From contig JABLXE010000016.1 of the NCBI GenBank assembly GCA_013178225.1, forward strand, positions 1 through 48,680: 48,680 nucleotides of DNA, written 5' to 3'. Under the pieces are notes generated by a model, which was not told the DNA's origin, did no database searches, and worked only from the letters and a program-made list of their open reading frames with translations. Below, piece after piece: positions 313 through 28,440 of this stretch (within the stretch, counting starts at the first letter, position 1; each line of letters opens with the position of its first letter). Origin of the DNA: Methanotrichaceae archaeon (GTDB lineage: Archaea > Halobacteriota > Methanosarcinia > Methanotrichales > Methanotrichaceae). The translations under genes and the position numbers were made by a program.

Positions 313-993
313 CTACCTCGCAAGCGTCTTCGGAAATGCAATTAACTTTGGAAAGTCTGAATCATTCACGATGCTGCTGCCGGTAGGACATATGCATGTG
401 GCATAAGAGCTGCCAGTGATCCCTTTATGTGTTGCCGGGTAGACGCTGCCGGTAGGACATTTGTAGCTAGTAGGGCGGCTGCTTGCAGTTGGACAGTAAT
501 GGCCTGTAGTGCATTCGATGCCGGTTGGGCAACCGGCATCAGTCAGGCAATTGGTCGCAGTAGGGCAACCTGGACCGGAAGGGCAGCTACAATCGGTGGT
601 GCATTTCCTGCCTGTAGTGCAATTGGGGCCGGAAGGACAGCAGCAGTCGGTCATGCATTTGCTGTCCGTCGGACAGCCTGAGCCTGTGGTGCAACCGCTA
701 TCCGTAGGGCAGTAAGGTCCGGTCGTGCAATATGCACCTGTTGGGCAGCAGGCCCCAGTTGGACAGCCCATTCCGGTCGGACAGCAACTGCCGGTAGGGC
801 TGCTGCCGCCGGTCAAACAGTTATGTCCTGTGGGCATATTGCAGGGAGTCGGACAAACACGCCCGGTGGGTGTATTGCACGCTGCAGGGTCCATCTTTCC
901 TGGTGTGTCAGCCTCCACGCAGGTTGCACATACATTGCCGATCAGCGCCAGGGACATTAATGTTCCCAGGATTGAGATTATATTGATCTTCAT
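313..993 (-). CDS. Secreted cysteine-rich hexapeptide-repeat protein
   Basis: I do not recognise a family. The 226-residue product begins with a signal peptide (charged MK, a hydrophobic stretch to about residue 19, then a small-residue cleavage region). Residues about 35-185 are a low-complexity array of hexapeptides of the form x-x-C-P/T-T-G/D with roughly 30 cysteines, often one every sixth residue and sometimes paired. The start ATG at 993 is preferred over 1008 because a GGTGG ribosome site lies just upstream. Regular cysteines suggest a disulfide-stapled or metal-binding fibre outside the cell; the spacing recalls beta-helical cysteine repeats, but that is inference. The opposite strand is also open in places through repeat-driven composition, and those frames lack a signal peptide. 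Confidence 0.6.
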   Translation of the reverse strand: MKINIISILGTLMSLALIGNVCATCVEADTPGKMDPAACNTPTGRVCPTPCNMPTGHNCLTGGSSPTGSCCPTGMGCPTGACCPTGAYCTTGPYCPTDSGCTTGSGCPTDSKCMTDCCCPSGPNCTTGRKCTTDCSCPSGPGCPTATNCLTDAGCPTGIECTTGHYCPTASSRPTSYKCPTGSVYPATHKGITGSSYATCICPTGSSIVNDSDFPKLIAFPKTLAR

Positions 994-1691
994 GATTCCA
1001 CCGCTCATTGATGATCCGCAATCGCCTGGGCATTATGCAGGCATGATGTCTGGATGAAAGCCAAGAACAGTTTGGCTTTTCAGAGCTTGCACAATTCGCA
1101 ATTGCAAAATTCTCTGTAGATGTTTCTTATTATAATTATATAAAATATTACTAATCAAGAATGCTAATTTTAAAATACTACTATAGTTCCTGTATGAATT
1201 CTAAGATGTTAGGATTTCTTCGATTGCCTGAGCATGCCAGCAATTTTCCTGCATATCCCTGTATATCCGAGAGTATTTTCATCTAATCGGCCTGGTCCTG
1301 CTATTTGCGCGATATGTCGGCGAAACTCAACCGGATCATTCGTCAAAGGCAGAAGGCGAATCGATAGATCGCGGGTGTTAAGACTTCCTTACATTTTCGG
1401 CAGAAGCCATCAGTTACAAACAGAGATAAGGACTTGAGGCACTCGGCCGTTCTATTGACCAGCCTGTCTGCTGATTCCTGTGATCTTTTGCCCGAACCCT
1501 GCCGGATTCAATCTATAAGTGCCCGAAATAGCTGGTATTTCCTATGCTAGCGATTCCAACCAGAGCACAAGTGTTCATTTGGATACACCACATCCAAGAA
1601 TCGAGGTTTTGGCCCTCTCTTTCCCAATCGCTACACCCATGCAGATATGCACGTAGGATGTTTTAATAGCCGCCTATTGCAGACCTTTCCA
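994..1691. other. Intergenic region without a supported gene
   Basis: This stretch of about 700 bases separates the cysteine-rich gene from aglJ; both are on the minus strand. Its left part is A/T-rich and promoter-like. A 67-codon plus-strand frame (1234-1437) has no ribosome site and no recognisable motif, so it is not called. I see no RNA gene or repeat here. Confidence 0.5.
1130..1150 (-). promoter_or_regulatory. Possible TATA region for the cysteine-rich gene
   Basis: An A/T-only run containing TATATAA-like elements lies about 140 bases upstream of the start at 993, which would give a leader of roughly 110 bases. It is the only strong TATA-like match upstream, but A/T-rich DNA makes such matches common. 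Confidence 0.35.
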
Positions 1692-5361: not shown

Positions 5362-8300
5362 CTAAAGGGAAGCGACACAGCTGCTGCAGATGGCATCGCA
5401 GCGGTCAAATCCCCAGTCAGGAGGCTTCCAGCCGCCCTCAGCTCTGGTGCTTGCGCATCTGCCGTCAGGAGTGCAGCTCAGCCAGTTGTAGTTCATGACA
5501 TGGGCGTCTGTAGCAGTTATCCAGTGACCTCTCTGTCCCGCGGTCACGTCGACAGTGTTCACAGGCACATCTATCACCTGGTAGATGCCCAGCTGGAGAT
5601 ACAGCGTCAGGGAGCTGCCCATAGGAAGGTAGGTGAAGGTCCAGTTGGCGGAGGTCGTTTCCGGGTAGATGTCGGAAGAGGGTCTGGTCGATGCGGTGCT
5701 GTAGAAGGTTCCTGCCGGAAACAGGTCTCTCATGTAGATGGGACCCAATGAGCGGTTGCCGTCATTTAGCAGGCTTACGGTCAGGTTAATGGTATTCTCA
5801 TCAACCCCGGAGATCTCAGAGCTCTGGTAGATGGTGAGGTGCGGCTCGTCGTAGTATCGAACCTCGGTGATGGCGGTGGACCTGTTCTGGTACCTTGAGC
5901 CCAGTTTGTAGACGATCTCGAACGATCCGGAATAGTCCGAGGTCATCTCCTTTAGAGTCGACGAATGTCCTCTGGTGTCAGGAGGCGCCTGTTCCAGGTA
6001 TCCCATGTGGTAAGTACCCTGTAACCTGGCCTCCGTCTCCAATAAAGAGCCGTTCTGATCGGCGAAGATAGTTCTATCCCTTTCGAGCGTATCTGCATAT
6101 CGATAGGACTCGCGAATGGACTCGCGAGAGCCGTAATTCTTGACTTTCACGTCCTCTGCCCATTTGCTGCTGTACTCAAGGTCGCGATCGAGCGGAAGGG
6201 TGACGGACACCGGCTGATAGACGGCCTCCAGAGAACTGTTCTCCCGAACCGAGCTGTTCTTTCTCTGATAGCGCAGCAGATCATCCCGTGAGTAGATACC
6301 GGACCCGCTCTCCCTCTGCTGAAGAGTTGTTCCGCCTTTGCCGCTGACGGTGACATCACTGCTGTAGCTACTGGTTCCGGTCTCCCTGCTGCTGATGGTG
6401 GCCGTGTTTCTCAGGCTGTAGGGCTTGATGCCGGTTGACAAATCCTTCAGGGTCCTCACAAAGCCCTGTCCGCTGACGCTCTGATCAAGGTCGAAGATTA
6501 TCTCCGGATTCTCGGGCACTCTGGCGGTTACAATGATAGTGCCGGCTTCGTCAGGCAGAAGTGTCCCTATGGTCCAGCGGTTGTTGGTTCCGGCATCAGG
6601 AGCCGGACTGACCGCGATGATGGATAGCTCCGGAGGATAATGCTCGGTGATCACCACATCGTGTAGCGCCGTGCCGCCCATATTTTCGTAGCTGATGGTG
6701 TAGGTGACGTATCCTCCGGGGGATACGGTCGAGACTGAGGCGCTCTTGACCAGCCCCAGTTTAGCCTCCGAGGAGGCGAGCACCTCAGTGGTGATGCTGT
6801 CGCATTGCGGGTCTCCGGGGTCCTGCAGGCAGGCGGTGTTCTCCAGCATATCGCCTTCCGAAAGCCCCGGGTCCACGTCGGCTCTGATGAACAAAAATCT
6901 GGTACTTCCGGGTCCCACTTCGTCCAGCACCACCTGGCCGGAATAGGGCATCCAGACGGTCCCATCCAGCGAGCATCGGGGATCGTTCAGCCCCTGCGGG
7001 AGGCTGTCCTCAACCGCCACATCCTCGGCCGCTGCCTTTCCCTGGTTCTGCACCGATATGGTGTAGGTTATGCTTCCGCCTGGGGCCACGCTGCCCGGGC
7101 CATCCATATCGATGGAAAGCTCGGCCTGGACGGATTGAACCGCCGTTTCGGCAGAGTCGCAGATGGAGCCGATGCAGGCAGTGTTGGTCAGGGTTGTTCC
7201 GCCAGGCGTGGTGCTGTCAACAGTGCCTTTAATGAAAACCGTCTTGGGCACGTTGGGCTCGATATCTCCCAGGGAGATCGGATCGTCTGATGTATAGTCG
7301 TGCCAGGTTCCGTCGATTGTGTATTGCGGATTCTTAACGGCATCTGGCAGCTGATCGGTCAGCTCGACATCGGAGGCCGCTTCGGTTCCGGTGTTTGAGA
7401 TCTGAATCTGATAGATGATCTGCCCGCCGGCGGCGATGGTGGCCGGCCCGCTCTTGTCCAGGGAAAGCACCGCCCCGCCAGATGCAACGTTGGTCTGACA
7501 GGTGTCGCAGACAGAACCAATGCAGGCGGTATTGGAGATGGTCGTCCCATCGGCAGCCGAGCTGTCCACAACGCCTTTCATGAGAACTGTCTTGGGGACG
7601 TCGGGCTCTACGTCTCCCAGGGAGATCACGCCTGATGGACAGTTGTGCCAGGAGGTTCCGTCAAGTGAGTATTGCTGGCTCTGAAGTTCATCCGGGAACT
7701 GATCGGTCAGCTCGACATCCGTAGCCGTTTCGGATCCGGTGTTTAAGACTTCAATATCGTAGACGATATCTCCACCCGTAGCAACTGTTGCCGGGCCTGT
7801 TTTTGTAACCGAAAGTTTGGGGCCGTTGATGACGGATGTGCTGGCAACGGCACAGGCAGTTTGGGCGTTTCCATTATCCGGCTGCCATTCAAAGCAGGCC
7901 TGGTCTTCGAGGACTATTCCGTCCTCGATGCCGTCTCCCACCAGGAAGCTGATTATTATACTCTTTGAGCCGCCGGCAGGAACATCCATCCATTCTTTAT
8001 CCCCGCTTTGATAAGGCCACCATTCGTTGAGGTCGAAGGTGTAAATCTTTGCGTCTGTGACGCCGGACGGTAGCGTATCCCAGACAGCTACCTGAGAAGC
8101 GGTAGCGGTTCCTTCGTTGTATACCGTGATGTAGTAGCTGGCTCTCTCCCCGGCATCGATGGTACTGGGACCGGATTTGAATATTGAGAGGGACACATAG
8201 GGTTCTGAGACCTCGGTAAAAGCATAATCGCTTGTGTAGTAATTTTCTCCAACATAGAGATTGGCCGTATTCATAATCGATCCCGAAACAGAATCGGATA

Positions 8301-10326
8301 TCTTGCAGCCGATGGTCGCTGTTTTGGACTCACCTGGCGCGATGTCTCCCAGATCAATCAAGTTGCCTGAAGAGTACCAGTCGTCTTCTGTGGGGTACCA
8401 TGCGTATTCGATCTCATCTGGCAGATCATCCGAGATCTGAACATCATTGGCAGTCGTGGATCGGTAGTTGGTGACGGTAATCATGTACGCAATTTCATCA
8501 CCTGGGGCTGCATCGGCCGGACCGATCTTGTCTATCCCAAGTCCCTTTACCTGGGAGGTGCAGGATTTGCACTCGCCGGTCTGGCTCACACAGGCGGTAT
8601 TGGTTACCGTCTCTCCCTCTGAGACTTCTTCACTGAGCGTTCCCCGGATATCGAGGTACTTTCCCTCATGTGAAATGAGGGTGTAAGTCAGAGGGGTTCC
8701 TGAAGAATACGGTGCCCAGTTCGATCCGCTGGTAGAATACTCGGCGCCCTCAAGCGAATCCGGCAGAGTGTCGACTATAGTAACATCTCCGGGGGCCGTG
8801 CCCGCGTTGCCGAAGAATATCCTGTACGTTACTGGCTGCCCGGCATAGAGGTTTCCCAATGTGTACTTACTGTATATCCGGGGATTGGGACCGCTGGCTG
8901 TGGCCACTTTAGTCTGGAAGGAGGTGCACTTCCCTTCGCCCACCAGGCAGGCCTGATTGGTCATAACCGTGCCGTCGGCGGCATTCGAGCTGACTGTCCC
9001 CTTCACGTAAACGGTCCTCAGCTCGCCCTGAGGGATGGTGCCCAGAGATATGGTGCTGCCCGAGCTGTAGGAGAGCCAGGTAGACCCGTCCAGAGAGTAC
9101 TGCCCTCCTCCCATCTCGCCCGGCAAGGTGTCGGTAACCCTTACCCCTTCGGCGGAAGCCGTGCCGCTGTTGCTGACCAGGATGGTATAGGTAATAGTTG
9201 ACCCGGCTGCGGCCTGAGAGGGGCCGGTCTTTTGGATGTCCAGCAATACCTCTCCGCCGCCGCTGCCAGCCTTGCTGACCTTGGTCGAAGCAGAGGCCTG
9301 TCCGCCTTCGACCAGGCTTGCCTGGTTGATCAGCTCTGTGCCCTCGGCTACCTGGCCGTCAACTGTTGCCCTAAGGTACAAAGTCCGCAGCTCCCGGGCA
9401 GGAATATCTTTCAGCGTAATTGAACGACCGGATGAATAAGGACTCCAGCTTGTGCCATCGAAAGAATACTCGGCACCGCTCAGGCCTTCAGGGAGCGTGT
9501 CACGAACATGGGCGTCTGCCTCTTCGATACCCTGATTCTCGACCACAATCAGATAGGAGATGGATGATCCTGCAGAAACCTTAGCAGGAGCGCTCTTGTA
9601 AATGGCGAGTTCGACCGGAGCCGGAACCGGTGAGGAATCTGCTTGGCCGGCCGGACTCACGGTCTCTATCTCTGCTATGATCGGACTTTTAGAGCACCCC
9701 ACGATAAGAGGTTTTTTGCTTCTCCAGCAGTTGTCTCCAGAATGATCATCGCAGCACGCCTCATCCGAACAGGTGTTGCCTTCCTGCCCGCTCCAGGTCA
9801 GGACCAGATCCATGATCACTAGCTGTTTTCCGCAGATCCATTCTCCGGTGAGCGGGTAATCGTATTCGATGCCAGCCTTGGCGGGAATGGTTCCGAGGCA
9901 GGTGCTGACCCTCTGCCATCTCATCTCCTGGTAAAGGTCGAAGACCAGGTAGCATTGATCCCTGTCCTGGTCTGCCTCATTTTCGATATCGAAATGCAGC
10001 ACGGCTCCTGCGAGGGGTCCGCCCGCTGGACAGTCCCGGCATCCTGCCGAGTCCTGCGATATCTCCCGGCCACTGGAGTCCATGAGGGCCGCTGAATCTA
10101 CAAAAGTTTCTTCGGATGAACAGTCGAATTGACAATTATCAAATATGCAATGATCGCAGGTGGACTGTGCGCATGGCATTATTGATCCTGAAAAGAAAGC
10201 TAGCAGCAAAAGGAGCACAGTATATCTTGACGACAAAATTTTTTCAGATAATAATTGTTGAGACCTGCCACTGGCAGCAATGCGCCTCCCAAGTGCCGGG
10301 GGCGGAAGGTCGGAGAGCCCGTTCAT
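5362..10326 (-). CDS. Giant DUF11-repeat surface protein
   Basis: Predicted exported protein of 1654 residues. After about 34 residues comes a hydrophobic signal segment (VLLLLLAFF). A cysteine-rich N-terminal part follows (about residues 45-210, with CxxC and CCDD clusters). Then there are at least nine DUF11 (CARDB-like) immunoglobulin-fold repeats of about 110 residues. Each begins with a K-x-GP-x-x-x-x-x-G strand and contains a TYTI-x-V-x-N-x-G core and a DTLP motif. A non-repeat region with tyrosine- and arginine-rich sequence follows, then one diverged tenth repeat and a cysteine-containing tail. No C-terminal membrane anchor or PGF-type signal is seen. ATG 10326 is chosen over 10347 for its GAGGG ribosome site. 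Such repeats typically stack into extracellular stalks; adhesion, sheath or S-layer roles are inference. Confidence 0.85.
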   Translation of the reverse strand: MNGLSDLPPPALGRRIAASGRSQQLLSEKILSSRYTVLLLLLAFFSGSIMPCAQSTCDHCIFDNCQFDCSSEETFVDSAALMDSSGREISQDSAGCRDCPAGGPLAGAVLHFDIENEADQDRDQCYLVFDLYQEMRWQRVSTCLGTIPAKAGIEYDYPLTGEWICGKQLVIMDLVLTWSGQEGNTCSDEACCDDHSGDNCWRSKKPLIVGCSKSPIIAEIETVSPAGQADSSPVPAPVELAIYKSAPAKVSAGSSISYLIVVENQGIEEADAHVRDTLPEGLSGAEYSFDGTSWSPYSSGRSITLKDIPARELRTLYLRATVDGQVAEGTELINQASLVEGGQASASTKVSKAGSGGGEVLLDIQKTGPSQAAAGSTITYTILVSNSGTASAEGVRVTDTLPGEMGGGQYSLDGSTWLSYSSGSTISLGTIPQGELRTVYVKGTVSSNAADGTVMTNQACLVGEGKCTSFQTKVATASGPNPRIYSKYTLGNLYAGQPVTYRIFFGNAGTAPGDVTIVDTLPDSLEGAEYSTSGSNWAPYSSGTPLTYTLISHEGKYLDIRGTLSEEVSEGETVTNTACVSQTGECKSCTSQVKGLGIDKIGPADAAPGDEIAYMITVTNYRSTTANDVQISDDLPDEIEYAWYPTEDDWYSSGNLIDLGDIAPGESKTATIGCKISDSVSGSIMNTANLYVGENYYTSDYAFTEVSEPYVSLSIFKSGPSTIDAGERASYYITVYNEGTATASQVAVWDTLPSGVTDAKIYTFDLNEWWPYQSGDKEWMDVPAGGSKSIIISFLVGDGIEDGIVLEDQACFEWQPDNGNAQTACAVASTSVINGPKLSVTKTGPATVATGGDIVYDIEVLNTGSETATDVELTDQFPDELQSQQYSLDGTSWHNCPSGVISLGDVEPDVPKTVLMKGVVDSSAADGTTISNTACIGSVCDTCQTNVASGGAVLSLDKSGPATIAAGGQIIYQIQISNTGTEAASDVELTDQLPDAVKNPQYTIDGTWHDYTSDDPISLGDIEPNVPKTVFIKGTVDSTTPGGTTLTNTACIGSICDSAETAVQSVQAELSIDMDGPGSVAPGGSITYTISVQNQGKAAAEDVAVEDSLPQGLNDPRCSLDGTVWMPYSGQVVLDEVGPGSTRFLFIRADVDPGLSEGDMLENTACLQDPGDPQCDSITTEVLASSEAKLGLVKSASVSTVSPGGYVTYTISYENMGGTALHDVVITEHYPPELSIIAVSPAPDAGTNNRWTIGTLLPDEAGTIIVTARVPENPEIIFDLDQSVSGQGFVRTLKDLSTGIKPYSLRNTATISSRETGTSSYSSDVTVSGKGGTTLQQRESGSGIYSRDDLLRYQRKNSSVRENSSLEAVYQPVSVTLPLDRDLEYSSKWAEDVKVKNYGSRESIRESYRYADTLERDRTIFADQNGSLLETEARLQGTYHMGYLEQAPPDTRGHSSTLKEMTSDYSGSFEIVYKLGSRYQNRSTAITEVRYYDEPHLTIYQSSEISGVDENTINLTVSLLNDGNRSLGPIYMRDLFPAGTFYSTASTRPSSDIYPETTSANWTFTYLPMGSSLTLYLQLGIYQVIDVPVNTVDVTAGQRGHWITATDAHVMNYNWLSCTPDGRCASTRAEGGWKPPDWGFDRCDAICSSCVASL

Positions 10327-19604: not shown

Positions 19605-20813
19605 TTACTCACCTTCCTTCTCTGCCCTTACTGCTTTGGATTTGGCTTCTTTATCATTGCTTTCTTTAGACTTGTCTGCCTTAGCATTGCTTTCTTTAGA
19701 CTTGTCTGCCTTAGCATTGCTTGATTTAGCCCGTTTGGGCCTGGCCTTTTCGACAGAAGCCCCTTCCTCTTCGGCTTTTTTCGCCTCTGCCTGGGCTTTC
19801 TTCATCCTGGCCACGATCTTGGAGGCGGCTTCCTCCGGAGGCTCGTGCTCCAAAATCTGCCTCACCTTGGGCTTCCTGAGGATGGGCACTACCGGCTCTA
19901 AAGCCTGGTTCACCAGCTTTAGCAGCTCGGGGTCGATCTTTGGCATCTTCACCTCGGGAAGCGGCGGCTTTTCAAATTCAGGTGCCGGAATGGCGCGGCT
20001 TACGTCCGGCCGCTTCTTCTCGCCCGTGACCAGTGCGGATATGGCGTCCTTCCACTCCGAGGCCCAGGGAGTCTCCTTGACCTCGGTATGGCGAACCTCC
20101 GACCTCTGCACATCGATTGCCGAGACCGGACAGGCCAGCTCACAGGCCCCGCAGAGGATACACTGCTCCTCGACCGGAGCCGCCTTTCCCTTCTCATCCA
20201 CGTACCAGCACTTGGCGGGACAGACGTTGAAGCAGGCCTGGCAGCCCTGCGGATCGCATTTGGGAAGATTCTTCTCCACCATCCTGATCCGGCCCTCAAA
20301 GGGCTTCTTGACGTCTATGGCCTGGTAGGGACAGACCAGAGCGCACCGGCTGCAGCCTATGCACAGTTCAGGGTCAATCTCGATCTTTCCCTCCAGCTGG
20401 AGCCTCTCCTCCAGCCTCTCGCCCTCAACCTCGATTGCCTCCTCCGGGCACACGTCGGCGCAAAGCCCGCAGTAATCGCACAGCTCCTCGTCCACCAGCA
20501 GCTGATCATAGGGCTTCAGGTCCTGGGGCGTCTTCTCGCGCTCGCCCTTCTCCAGCAGCAGGAAGGCCGGACAGAAGCGAGCGCACCTGCCGCAGAGGTT
20601 GCACTTCTCGGCATCAACCCGTATCTGGCCTTTAATGCCCTCCCGCAGAGGCCCGAAGTCCTCGCGCTTCCGGTCAAAAGTTACTTTGATGGCACCGGTG
20701 GGGCAGACCGTCTCGCAGAGGACGCAGGGGAGGCACTTTTCGTTGGGCACGGCCTCGGCCACCAGCCTCGGATACTCTTCCAGCTCCCGGAAGGCCTTGG
20801 TTTTCTCGGTCAT
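19605..20813 (-). CDS. Polyferredoxin, FwdF-like, with repetitive charged tail
   Basis: Iron-sulfur protein of 402 residues with six four-cysteine motifs (starting near CLPCVLCETVCP, CNLCGRCARFCP, CDYCGLCADVCP, CIGCSRCALVCP, the longer CDPQGCQACFNVCP and CILCGACELACP), so up to six [4Fe-4S] clusters. Together with the two-cluster protein encoded directly upstream this gives eight motifs, the number and arrangement seen in FwdF, the polyferredoxin of formylmethanofuran dehydrogenase. Residues about 270-340 are proline/acid-rich. The last 50 are a Lys/Ala/Glu/Ser tail containing a tandem ten-residue repeat. It overlaps the ferredoxin gene by four bases. It probably carries electrons to or from HdrA; the partner enzyme is not shown by the sequence. 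Confidence 0.88.
   Translation of the reverse strand: MTEKTKAFRELEEYPRLVAEAVPNEKCLPCVLCETVCPTGAIKVTFDRKREDFGPLREGIKGQIRVDAEKCNLCGRCARFCPAFLLLEKGEREKTPQDLKPYDQLLVDEELCDYCGLCADVCPEEAIEVEGERLEERLQLEGKIEIDPELCIGCSRCALVCPYQAIDVKKPFEGRIRMVEKNLPKCDPQGCQACFNVCPAKCWYVDEKGKAAPVEEQCILCGACELACPVSAIDVQRSEVRHTEVKETPWASEWKDAISALVTGEKKRPDVSRAIPAPEFEKPPLPEVKMPKIDPELLKLVNQALEPVVPILRKPKVRQILEHEPPEEAASKIVARMKKAQAEAKKAEEEGASVEKARPKRAKSSNAKADKSKESNAKADKSKESNDKEAKSKAVRAEKEGE
19651..19722. repeat. 30-bp tandem repeat inside the polyferredoxin gene
   Basis: Two full copies (19651-19680 and 19681-19710, one base different) and a 12-base partial copy encode the repeated residues SNAKADKSKE. The unit is a multiple of three, so copy changes would lengthen or shorten the tail without a frameshift. 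Confidence 0.9.
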
Positions 20814-24921: not shown

Positions 24922-25295
24922 TTATTATTGGATGCTGCGTAATTATTGTTGGCCAGGATCTATTCATGCACGAACTAAATATTACTAACTTCCAGTTACT
25001 GCCTTCTAATATTTATATATTTCGCGAATTCCTGCAAAGGATGCAATCATTTGAAAAGTTTCAAAAGTTGTCGGTGACATAGTTAGCAATAATAATATTG
25101 ATGTATAATATGGATGGTACAACTATTGATGAAAATTGATGCAAAAGATCATTTCGGAAACCGGGTGGGCCCCTGGTACACGGAACTGCTAATTTATAGA
25201 TCTCAAGCATTTATAGGTCTCAAGCAATTGTCATAAATCCTTCCTGAGCAGATACCGTCTCGAAAAAGAATCTGGTTTCTTCGAACGCAGGCATC
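24922..25295. other. Divergent promoter region between rnj and the cotransporter
   Basis: No gene is visible in these 374 bases. The left part is very A/T-rich, with TATATA-like boxes for rnj near 25010-25020 and scattered plus-strand TATA-like sequences. The right part holds a tandem repeat (25192-25225) that may control the cotransporter gene. Confidence 0.5.
25192..25225 (+). repeat. Tandem 17-bp repeat with TATA-like core
   Basis: Two adjacent copies of ATTTATAGRTCTCAAGC differ by a single base. Each contains TTTATAG. The array lies about 70 bases upstream of the cotransporter start, where a promoter or repressor site would be expected. Confidence 0.8.
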
Positions 25296-27572
25296 ATGAA
25301 GTTCAATATCCGTAAATTATTTAAAAATACCGAAGGCGGGCGCGCTGATACCGCAGATCGGCCGGGAGGCGAGACTCTGCAAGAGCAGATCGAAGAGCAA
25401 AAGACCTCCTCCAATCAATTCGGAACTTTTGCCGGAGTGTTTACCCCCACTCTTCTCACCATTCTGGGGGTGATTATGTACCTCAGAGAAGGGTGGGTGG
25501 TGGGAAACGCTGGCCTGTTGGGGGCCTGGTTCATAATCCTCATCTCATACGCCATTACCATCTCCACAGGTCTCTCCCTTTCATCCATCACCACAAATAT
25601 CCGTATTGGCGCTGGAGGTGCCTACTCCATCATCTCCCAGTCGCTGGGCCTGGAAGTTGGTGGAAGCGTCGGACTTCCTCTTTATCTCTCTCAGACTCTG
25701 GCAGTGGCCATGTACATCTTCGGATTTCGCACCGGCTGGCTGTGGATCTTTCCCGATCATCCGGCAATCCTGGTGGATTTAGGTACATTTACAATATTAT
25801 TCATAATAGCATATATAAGCGCAGGTTTGGCCTTTCGCGTTCAGTACATAATCCTGGCCATCATTGCAGCTTCACTAATTTCTGTAATTTGGGCGGCAGT
25901 TTCCGGCTCGTTGATATATCCTGTGACCTGGTGGGGCTCGTTTCCCGGCTCTCCGGAGGACGGATTTTCCGGAACCAGCTTCTGGTTTGTCTTCGCCGTC
26001 TTCTTCCCGGCAGCAACAGGCATTATGGCCGGTGCCAACATGTCCGGGGAGCTCAAAGACCCTCGCCGGAGCATTCCGATCGGCACCATGTCCGCCATAC
26101 TGTTGAGCCTGGTCATTTATCTGGGCCTGGCCTACTGGCTGGCGGCGTCAGCCAGCACCGAAGAACTGGTTTCCAACTATACGATTATGATCGAGCGAGC
26201 CGCCTGGGGGTCCCTGGTACTGGCAGGTTTGTTGGGTGCCACGTTTTCATCAGCTCTCTCCTCAATCGTTGGCGCTCCCAGGATACTTCAGGCCCTGGGA
26301 GAGCACCGGGTCCTGCCAGAAGGAGAATGGTTTGCCAAGAGGAGCCGCAAAGGAGAGCCCAGGAATGCCATGTTGTGCACAGGGGCAATAGTCTTCGGTG
26401 CTCTGATGCTGCGCGATATCAATGTCATAGCCCCCCTGATCACGATGTTCTTCTTGATCTCCTATGGCATGATCAACATAGTGGTGCTGATAGAGCAGAG
26501 TCTGAAGCTTCTTAGTTTCCGGCCTCTCTTAAAAATACCGCGCCTGGTTCCTTTCATCGGAGCCGCAGGCTGCCTGTTTGCGATGTTTATCATAAATCCC
26601 GCTTTCAGCTTGATTGCGGTTGCGGTCATACTTGTGATTCACTGGACATTGATCAGGCGCCATCTGCAGGCTCCCTTTGGTGATGTGAGAAGCGGTCTCT
26701 TTGTGGCTGTGGCAGAGTGGGCTGCCAGGAAGACCAACGACCTTGCCGTCTCGAAGCAGAAGACCTGGACTGCCAGCCTCTTGCTGCCGGTGGAAAACCC
26801 GCAGGAGCTGCGCAAGAATTTCAACTTGATCGCAGATATCGCTTATCCCAAGGGTTCAATAAAAATACTGGGGCTGGCAGGCATTGATAGAGACAAGGCC
26901 CTTTCCGATAGGCTCTCCTATTTGGCAAAGGCCTTTCAGAAGAGAGGCATTTTTTCGTCCTGGACCATCATAGATGTCGGCCAGTTCGAAGAAAACCTGA
27001 TTGCGGGAATGGAGGCTTTAGGCGGTGCCTTCTTCCGGCCAAGCGTTATATTCCTGACCCTGCCCGGCTCCCCGGAAAGGGACGAATCCATCAAAAGCAT
27101 CATCACAAAGGCATCCCAAAACCGCATCGGGGTCCTGCTCTTTGCCGATCATCCTGAAGGCGGGCTTGGCATGCGAAAGACCATCAATCTGTGGATCGAA
27201 GACAAGAGCCCCAAATGGGAGCTCAGCATGGATCTGGGCAATCTGGACCTGGCACTGCTAATAGCCTACAAGCTCAAGATCAACTGGAAGGCATCGCTTC
27301 ATCTCATCGCTCAAGTGAAGGACTACAATCTGGCTCCCGCGGCAGAGACATTCCTGAAATACCTGGCTGAGGCTGCTCGCATCCCCAACGCAGAATCTCA
27401 TGTGGTAGTGGGGAAGATGGAGGATTTCGTGGAGTACCAGCCTATGGCATCGCTCAGCATATTCGCCCTTCCCAGCGATCCTGATCTCGATTTTGTCAGG
27501 GACATGGTCAAGAAGACCGGCACTGCATGCTTATTTGCTCTCGACTCTGGTGAAGAGAACGCGCTGGCCTGA
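25296..27572 (+). CDS. Cation-chloride cotransporter (SLC12/NKCC-like)
   Basis: APC-superfamily transporter of 758 residues. A short cytosolic N-terminus is followed by FGTFAGVFTPTLLTILGVIMYLREGWVVG, the helix-1 ion site shared with animal NKCC/KCC proteins. Then come GAGGAYSIISQSLGLEVGGSVG and, in the sixth helix, FFPAATGIMAGANMSGELKDPRRSIPIGT. Twelve helices end near residue 455; a 300-residue soluble C-terminal domain follows, as in the animal proteins. It is close to the characterised Methanosarcina acetivorans cotransporter. It probably moves Na, K and Cl for osmotic balance; ion selectivity cannot be fixed here. The ATG start lacks a strong ribosome site. Confidence 0.9.
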   Translation: MKFNIRKLFKNTEGGRADTADRPGGETLQEQIEEQKTSSNQFGTFAGVFTPTLLTILGVIMYLREGWVVGNAGLLGAWFIILISYAITISTGLSLSSITTNIRIGAGGAYSIISQSLGLEVGGSVGLPLYLSQTLAVAMYIFGFRTGWLWIFPDHPAILVDLGTFTILFIIAYISAGLAFRVQYIILAIIAASLISVIWAAVSGSLIYPVTWWGSFPGSPEDGFSGTSFWFVFAVFFPAATGIMAGANMSGELKDPRRSIPIGTMSAILLSLVIYLGLAYWLAASASTEELVSNYTIMIERAAWGSLVLAGLLGATFSSALSSIVGAPRILQALGEHRVLPEGEWFAKRSRKGEPRNAMLCTGAIVFGALMLRDINVIAPLITMFFLISYGMINIVVLIEQSLKLLSFRPLLKIPRLVPFIGAAGCLFAMFIINPAFSLIAVAVILVIHWTLIRRHLQAPFGDVRSGLFVAVAEWAARKTNDLAVSKQKTWTASLLLPVENPQELRKNFNLIADIAYPKGSIKILGLAGIDRDKALSDRLSYLAKAFQKRGIFSSWTIIDVGQFEENLIAGMEALGGAFFRPSVIFLTLPGSPERDESIKSIITKASQNRIGVLLFADHPEGGLGMRKTINLWIEDKSPKWELSMDLGNLDLALLIAYKLKINWKASLHLIAQVKDYNLAPAAETFLKYLAEAARIPNAESHVVVGKMEDFVEYQPMASLSIFALPSDPDLDFVRDMVKKTGTACLFALDSGEENALA

Positions 27573-27580
27573 GGGCAGCA

Positions 27581-27602
27581 CCCGAGGCTCTACGGGCTTT
27601 TT
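27581..27602 (+). terminator. Hairpin-T-run terminator of the cotransporter gene
   Basis: CCCG at 27581-27584 pairs with CGGG at 27593-27596 and is followed by CTTTTT (five T at 27598-27602), nine bases after the stop codon. Confidence 0.55.
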
Positions 27603-27744
27603 CTGTCGTCAAGCGGCTCTCGATCTCATGAAGGTCTTTCTTGAGTAATGGTTAACTATGATGCCGGACAGAAATGAAGTCTAAAAATCTTGAACTGTAT
27701 AGCTCAACCAAAGAGGACGAATCCATATCATTGGAGCAGAGACC

Positions 27745-28440
27745 GTGTCTGCCATCATAACGGAGGATCCTGAACTCCGGAACAAGCTGCGGGCTTTTCA
27801 AGACCGGGACCAAGCCGGGTCTTGCCTTGCCGGGATGCTGGAGAAATACAGGAAATCGGATGCCATAGTGCTGGCCATTCCCTCGGGAGGGGTTCCTGTA
27901 GGGCTGGTCGTCTCATCTCGTCTGGATCTGCCTTTCGATTTGCTGATAATCCGGAAGATACCGATACCTGGAAATCCCGAGGCAGGTTTTGGAGCCGTCA
28001 GCCTGGAGGGAGATATGGTCCTCAACGATTCCATTGTCAGAATGCTGGGGCTTTCCAGGGATGAGATCGTGGAGCTGGCCGGGTCGGTCCAGAGGGAGCT
28101 TTCAGCGAGAAACCGGATATTCAGGGAGGACGCGCCCTTCCCGGATCTGCATGGCAAGGTGGCCATACTGGTTGATGACGGACTGGCCTCCGGCTACACC
28201 ATGATCACTGCAGTTCGTCTGGTGAAAAGGAAAAAGCCTGCTCGGATCGTAGTGGCGGTGCCTACAGCTTCGGCCAGCACGGCAAAGCTCCTGGCGGAGG
28301 AAGTGGATGAAGTGGTCTGTCCCAACATCCGCAGCGGCTATAGCTTTGCCGTCGCTGACGCATACTGGAACTGGTATGATCTGTCGCGCGACCAAGTGGT
28401 AGACATGCTCCGGCAGCGTGGCTTTCTCAAAGCCGGCTAG
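27745..28440 (+). CDS. Phosphoribosyltransferase-domain protein
   Basis: Type I PRT-fold protein of 231 residues. The PRPP-binding loop VDDGLASGYTM spans about 143-153. An N-terminal AIPSGGVPVGLVVS and IIRKIPIPGNPEAGFGAVS segment matches the family often annotated as predicted phosphoribosyltransferases of archaea and of dienelactone-hydrolase fusions. The substrate is unknown. The GTG start has GGAG nine bases upstream; a TATA-like region lies in the preceding A/T-rich gap. It stands as a single gene, converging with the next one. Confidence 0.85.
   Translation: MSAIITEDPELRNKLRAFQDRDQAGSCLAGMLEKYRKSDAIVLAIPSGGVPVGLVVSSRLDLPFDLLIIRKIPIPGNPEAGFGAVSLEGDMVLNDSIVRMLGLSRDEIVELAGSVQRELSARNRIFREDAPFPDLHGKVAILVDDGLASGYTMITAVRLVKRKKPARIVVAVPTASASTAKLLAEEVDEVVCPNIRSGYSFAVADAYWNWYDLSRDQVVDMLRQRGFLKAG

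Follow-up and report, generated by a model that had tools for sequence, protein, structure and literature searches.

A family of apparently exported cysteine-hexad repeat proteins in two genomes of the Methanotrichaceae

Known repeat proteins and the gene of the window

Keratin-associated (high-sulfur) proteins build the intracellular matrix of hair from short, disulfide-linked repeats that are rich in cysteine, proline, and threonine and come in pentapeptide units. In collagen-like GPT-repeat proteins such as BclA of Bacillus, a three-residue repeat without cysteine forms a triple helix. The beetle antifreeze family has the 12-residue repeat TCTxSxNCxxAx with a disulfide from C2 to C8 in each coil (PMC8038014). 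Sheath (SH) proteins are described widely in Methanothrix (PMC11576556), and the integrity of SH proteins in archaeal sheaths is said there and in PMC10593813 to depend on disulfides. The latter source gives two cysteines for the Methanospirillum SH monomer, and the published fold of SH proteins has an amyloid-like core of two β-sheets.

The gene described here occupies positions 313–993 (minus strand, stop codon included) of the window, by which we mean the whole analyzed stretch of 48,680 nucleotides from a Methanotrichaceae archaeon. Its translation is a protein of 226 residues with 31 cysteines, in agreement with an earlier note on this DNA, which had counted about 30. An alternative in-frame ATG at 1008 would extend the protein to 231 residues, but the ATG at 993 is the likelier start because a putative ribosome-binding site, GGTGGA, recognized by eye at 997–1002 (minus strand), directly precedes it; GGAG-type sequences were also seen near the starts of most paralogues when their upstream regions were inspected. 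Residues 1–23 (925–993, minus strand) look, by eye, like a signal peptide of the kind expected for the exported protein proposed earlier, with a hydrophobic stretch that ends in A and is followed by TCVEAD, and Cys22 falls inside this segment. Behind it run tandem hexads of the form C-[P/T/x]-T-[G/S/D]-x-x, in which position 2 may also be T, L, M, or another residue and position 4 is G, D, S, or A. Judged from the cysteine positions and the hexad register, the array covers residues 39–202 (388–879, minus strand), and by register it is most regular at residues 66–171 (481–798, minus strand). The six-residue periodicity noticed earlier is beyond chance: the protein has 16 C-x5-C pairs, whereas 5000 random reorderings of its residues averaged 4.0 and never exceeded 11 (0/5000 reach 16), and further peaks of cysteine pairs lie at distances of 12 (20 pairs) and 18 (17 pairs).

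By description, these short Cys-, Pro-, and Thr-rich repeats resemble those of keratin-associated proteins, from which they differ in unit length and in cellular setting. A repeated P-T-G is common to the hexads and the collagen-like proteins, whose unit is half as long and free of cysteine. Like the SH proteins, the present protein would be of a surface type. The SH monomer of Methanospirillum has no cysteine repeat array, and the array seen here, together with the published two-sheet fold, makes similarity to SH proteins in sequence or fold unlikely.

The gene is isolated. A glycosyltransferase (PF00535) gene lies 683 bp upstream and is itself preceded by a phosphoglucomutase/phosphomannomutase gene. 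Elsewhere in the window, a 30 bp tandem repeat (2.6 copies, 93% matches) was found at 19647–19730, and two short AT-rich tandem repeats with periods of 13 and 17 at 25092–25226. The window also encodes an rRNA-methyltransferase-like protein, named by eye, whose identity is 78% in genome G015 and 59% in Methanosarcina sp. KYL-1, which fits the Methanotrichaceae as the probable family.

Reading frame, family, and distribution

Comparison of the window gene with its closest paralogue, on contig C27 of the same genome, gave a dS of 1.46 and a dN of 0.30 (dN/dS about 0.2; 162 codons, 62% identity), and the differences number 41 at the first codon position, 38 at the second, and 86 at the third. The C22 paralogue gave a dS of 1.50 and a dN of 0.42, and dS was saturated when the window gene was paired with each of the remaining five relatives. 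Stops, 5 to 11 per frame, interrupt all five alternative frames of the gene. Because dN/dS is low and every other frame is interrupted, the minus frame is the selected one, and neither a lack of selection on it nor a conserved frame on the opposite strand, both of which the earlier note had considered, was found. The cysteines are encoded by 11 TGT and 20 TGC codons, all four threonine codons are used, and 29/29 DNA hexads are distinct; the codons vary, but C and T are maintained by purifying selection.

The homologue search proposed earlier yielded a family. In the source genome (G000; 2.98 Mb in 28 contigs), a protein search returned 28 fragments, a number of which were weak matches or lay on the opposite strand; after translation these resolved into seven array loci, namely the window gene and six paralogues, one each on contigs C27, C22, C5, C24, C7, and C4. 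One array locus, encoding an eighth protein, was found in G001, a relative from the same taxonomic family. Scanned with a DNA pattern for four C-x-T hexads, G000 gave 130 exact matches, against none for the reversed control. The unbroken copies have open frames of 239 to 709 residues and a common plan, in which a leader, hydrophobic by eye, is followed by the array. No common blastn match was found in the flanks of the eight genes (upstream 400 bp, downstream 315–400 bp).

Several copies have features of their own. The C5 copy (L011:4836–5885; about 26835–27884 of the contig) carries one in-frame TGA within the hexad array, which appears to be a recent loss or a case of read-through because the frame is regular on both sides. 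The C24 copy ends in approximately 229–230 residues without repeat (L012:5960–6646) and is adjoined by two secreted-looking proteins (L012:6882–7787 and 8025–9089) that are possible surface proteins; neither this end nor the two neighbors had a Pfam match. Next to the C4 and G001 copies, and oriented divergently from each, lies a gene for a secreted-looking protein that matches DUF4785_3rd (L014:5815–7230 and L015:2277–3344); the two neighbors share 44% identity across 343 aligned positions. This common position suggests an ancestral status for the C4 copy. The DUF4785_3rd neighbor was matched in 25/50 family genomes, and among 25 fetched loci, a set that leaves out the remaining G000 matches, a cysteine array accompanied it within the examined stretch only in G000 and G001.

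The arrays are rare. A three-hexad pattern matched four of the 50 family genomes, of which G000 and G001 have true arrays and G014 and G062, judged from the matched letters, have simple DNA repeats. A profile of seven proteins matched 6/237 genomes of the class and 5/392 genomes sampled evenly from the phylum (the family, class, and phylum sets overlap), and the inspected hits in G014, G278, G211, G437, and G502 were judged to be simple or low-complexity repeats. Those at L286 (G211) and L285 (G278) are low-complexity cysteine repeats with weak profile matches, which we regard as simple repeats and not as relatives. After inspection, real arrays remained in 2/50 family, 2/237 class, and 2/392 phylum-sample genomes, so that the rarity in archaea claimed earlier holds within this phylum. 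A search of a wider collection of genome contigs returned no relative of the window protein. A pattern scan gave at least 116 stretches in genome contigs and at least 120 in viral contigs; among the matches listed, no frame above the entropy filter held such an array outside G000 and G001, and most were of low complexity. Plasmid hits came from 14 records, five of which were inspected and showed Pro-Thr-Gly or other repeats and no cysteine array, and phage hits came from 10 records and were weak. Pfam gave no match for the window protein at E 10 and none over the curated cut-off for six relatives, and no NCBIfam model passed its cut-off for the window protein (the collagen-like adhesin Lcl scored 17.4 bits where 500 are required). 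No account of such a family came up in the literature searched, mostly at the level of search listings, and a search on keratin-associated proteins likewise gave nothing.

This distribution bears on the sheath, with which the earlier note had connected the protein. Because most family genomes are without the arrays, these cannot be a general part of the sheath, and the connection is weakened by the 48/50 family genomes that have no real array; a tie to some additional surface layer in this lineage is possible.

Hexad register and predicted fold

The number of C-x5-C pairs is beyond chance in all eight proteins (for none of them did any of 5000 shuffles attain the observed number). Among 339 complete hexads, counted with X bridging the break in the C5 frame, the non-repeat part of the C24 protein mostly omitted, and broken hexads dropped, position 1 is cysteine in 296. 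Over all position-assigned residues, position 2 is proline in 51%, position 3 threonine in 84%, position 4 glycine in 54%, and position 5 serine in 40%. Cysteine occurs elsewhere in the 339 hexads 0, 1, 11, 26, and 12 times at positions 2 to 6, respectively, a placement that looks as if the hexad sites were ordered. In four proteins (window, C27, C5, and C7), these extra cysteines give rise to C-x-C and CC groups. With leaders and flanking residues counted, five of the eight have an odd cysteine total. Compensation for lost cysteines was considered and dropped as too weak an effect: where the previous hexad has an extra cysteine, the next position 1 is lost in 9/45 cases, compared with 23/271 otherwise (Fisher p 0.03).

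Above the hexad, longer repeats span 12 residues in the C27 protein, 24 in the C7, 30 in the C4, and 18 in the G001 protein, and none is clear in the four others. A pooled test of the eight proteins favored a two-hexad period (p 0.0013), but this signal came from the C27 protein and was lost without it (p 0.53) as well as in the four proteins lacking longer repeats (p 0.39). We therefore do not claim a common 12-residue coil; with longer repeats that vary from one protein to the next, the eight proteins point to no single coil size.

AlphaFold2, run on the single sequence, a mode that frequently fails even where a real fold exists, gave a pLDDT of 37.8 for the whole window protein and 42.9 for residues 66–171, and at these values no fold is supported. 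The disulfide-stapled solenoid suggested earlier, for which a structure prediction had been proposed as a check, is still a good model, although no fold was confirmed.

Possible states of the cysteines

In our judgment, there is about an even chance that the window gene and its relatives encode exported structural proteins of a lineage-specific family, whose cysteine ladder forms disulfides that staple or cross-link surface material. The signal peptide would direct export, and the hexads, written as C-x-T-G-x-x, would then place a thiol every six residues. Oxidation would join these thiols in disulfides, bridging each turn of a narrow solenoid in the manner of the C2–C8 bonds of the beetle coils or else linking neighboring chains. 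The outcome would be a stiff rod or matrix at the cell surface, resistant to proteases and denaturants and possibly attached to the sheath. We favor this reading because it combines regular thiols, apparent export, and the reported importance of disulfides in sheaths. Several observations count against it, among them the low prediction confidence, the lack of a common coil size, and the odd cysteine totals of five proteins. Proline at half of the position-2 sites would be awkward for a regular β-strand. In addition, neither DsbB nor VKOR was found in G000 at E 0.001, where of this machinery only DsbD_TM matches are present, one of them about 7 kb from the C5 copy. PMC11576556 reports "DbsB" and "DbsD" in sheath-containing Methanotrichales.

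It is possible, though we doubt it, that the disulfides are intermolecular and that the protein is a flexible chain rich in P-T-G turns, forming a matrix of the keratin-associated or gluten type with no defined solenoid. The frequent proline at position 2 and glycine at position 4, the very low confidence of the structure prediction, and the hexad as the sole common unit beneath variable longer repeats would all fit such a chain. Its strict register, however, with no cysteine at position 2 in any of the 339 hexads, suggests a specific geometry, and low single-sequence confidence is often seen with true folds as well.

We consider it unlikely that the cysteines are kept reduced to hold soft metal ions (e.g., Cu, Zn, Ni, and Co) or metal-sulfur clusters in a row, for metal storage, detoxification, or surface electron transfer. 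Methanogens are strict anaerobes, which speaks for this possibility together with the undetected DsbB and VKOR and the C-x-C and CC groups of four proteins. Known metallothioneins, however, have dense C-x-C and C-x2-C clusters, whereas the main motif here is a regular C-x5-C ladder. No metal-related family appeared among the 19 neighbor genes scanned, the closest being matches to FmdE and cupin next to the C7 copy. In a still more speculative form, to which we give little credence, a reduced ladder that had independently evolved the thiol spacing of the beetle proteins would serve as a surface metal-thiolate string for metal capture or for electron uptake from partner cells. Binding of heme, also raised in the earlier note, is not suggested in the manner of c-type cytochromes, because their motif is CxxCH and the dominant unit here is C-x5-C.

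A beetle-type antifreeze or ice-binding protein is very improbable. Some features are shared: beetle antifreeze proteins (Tenebrio molitor 1EZG and Dorcus DhbAFP) are exported, repetitive, and Thr-rich with a small residue at Cys+3, and 1EZG, in which cysteines are likewise six apart, aligned cysteine to cysteine with the family profile. A search of the PDB with this profile (E up to 10) gave only two matches, 1EZG (E 0.33) and BclA (E 0.35), and the window protein alone had no match at E 1. The match to 1EZG is non-significant and does not establish homology. Moreover, TCT, present in every coil of the beetle consensus, occurs only three times in the eight proteins (284 C-x5-C steps) and never in the window protein. 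The hexad proteins differ further in having proline after cysteine in half of the hexads, threonine at Cys+2, a longer chain, and a variable longer repeat. On the profile match and the TCT count, membership in the beetle type was rejected; the thiol spacing is similar, ice binding is not indicated, and a 12-residue period like that of the beetle repeat is clear in the C27 protein only.

Least of all do we credit a simple DNA repeat or opposite-strand artefact without a functional protein: overlapping plus-strand ORFs do exist in the window and tandem repeats do make such frames in other genomes, but the codon evidence rejects an opposite-strand artefact, Tandem Repeats Finder gives no DNA tandem array at the gene, and the seven loci in G000 are dispersed.

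If disulfides are indeed formed, a strict anaerobe in which DsbB and VKOR were not detected must form dozens of them per chain, and oxidative folding in methanogens would therefore become a testable question. If the cysteines are instead reduced, the ladder would be an unusual ordered metal-thiolate array. Whichever state holds, the hexad would be a simple, designable unit, and this seven-copy cysteine-ladder family, unnamed in Pfam and present in two genomes of one methanogen family, would be a new surface material.
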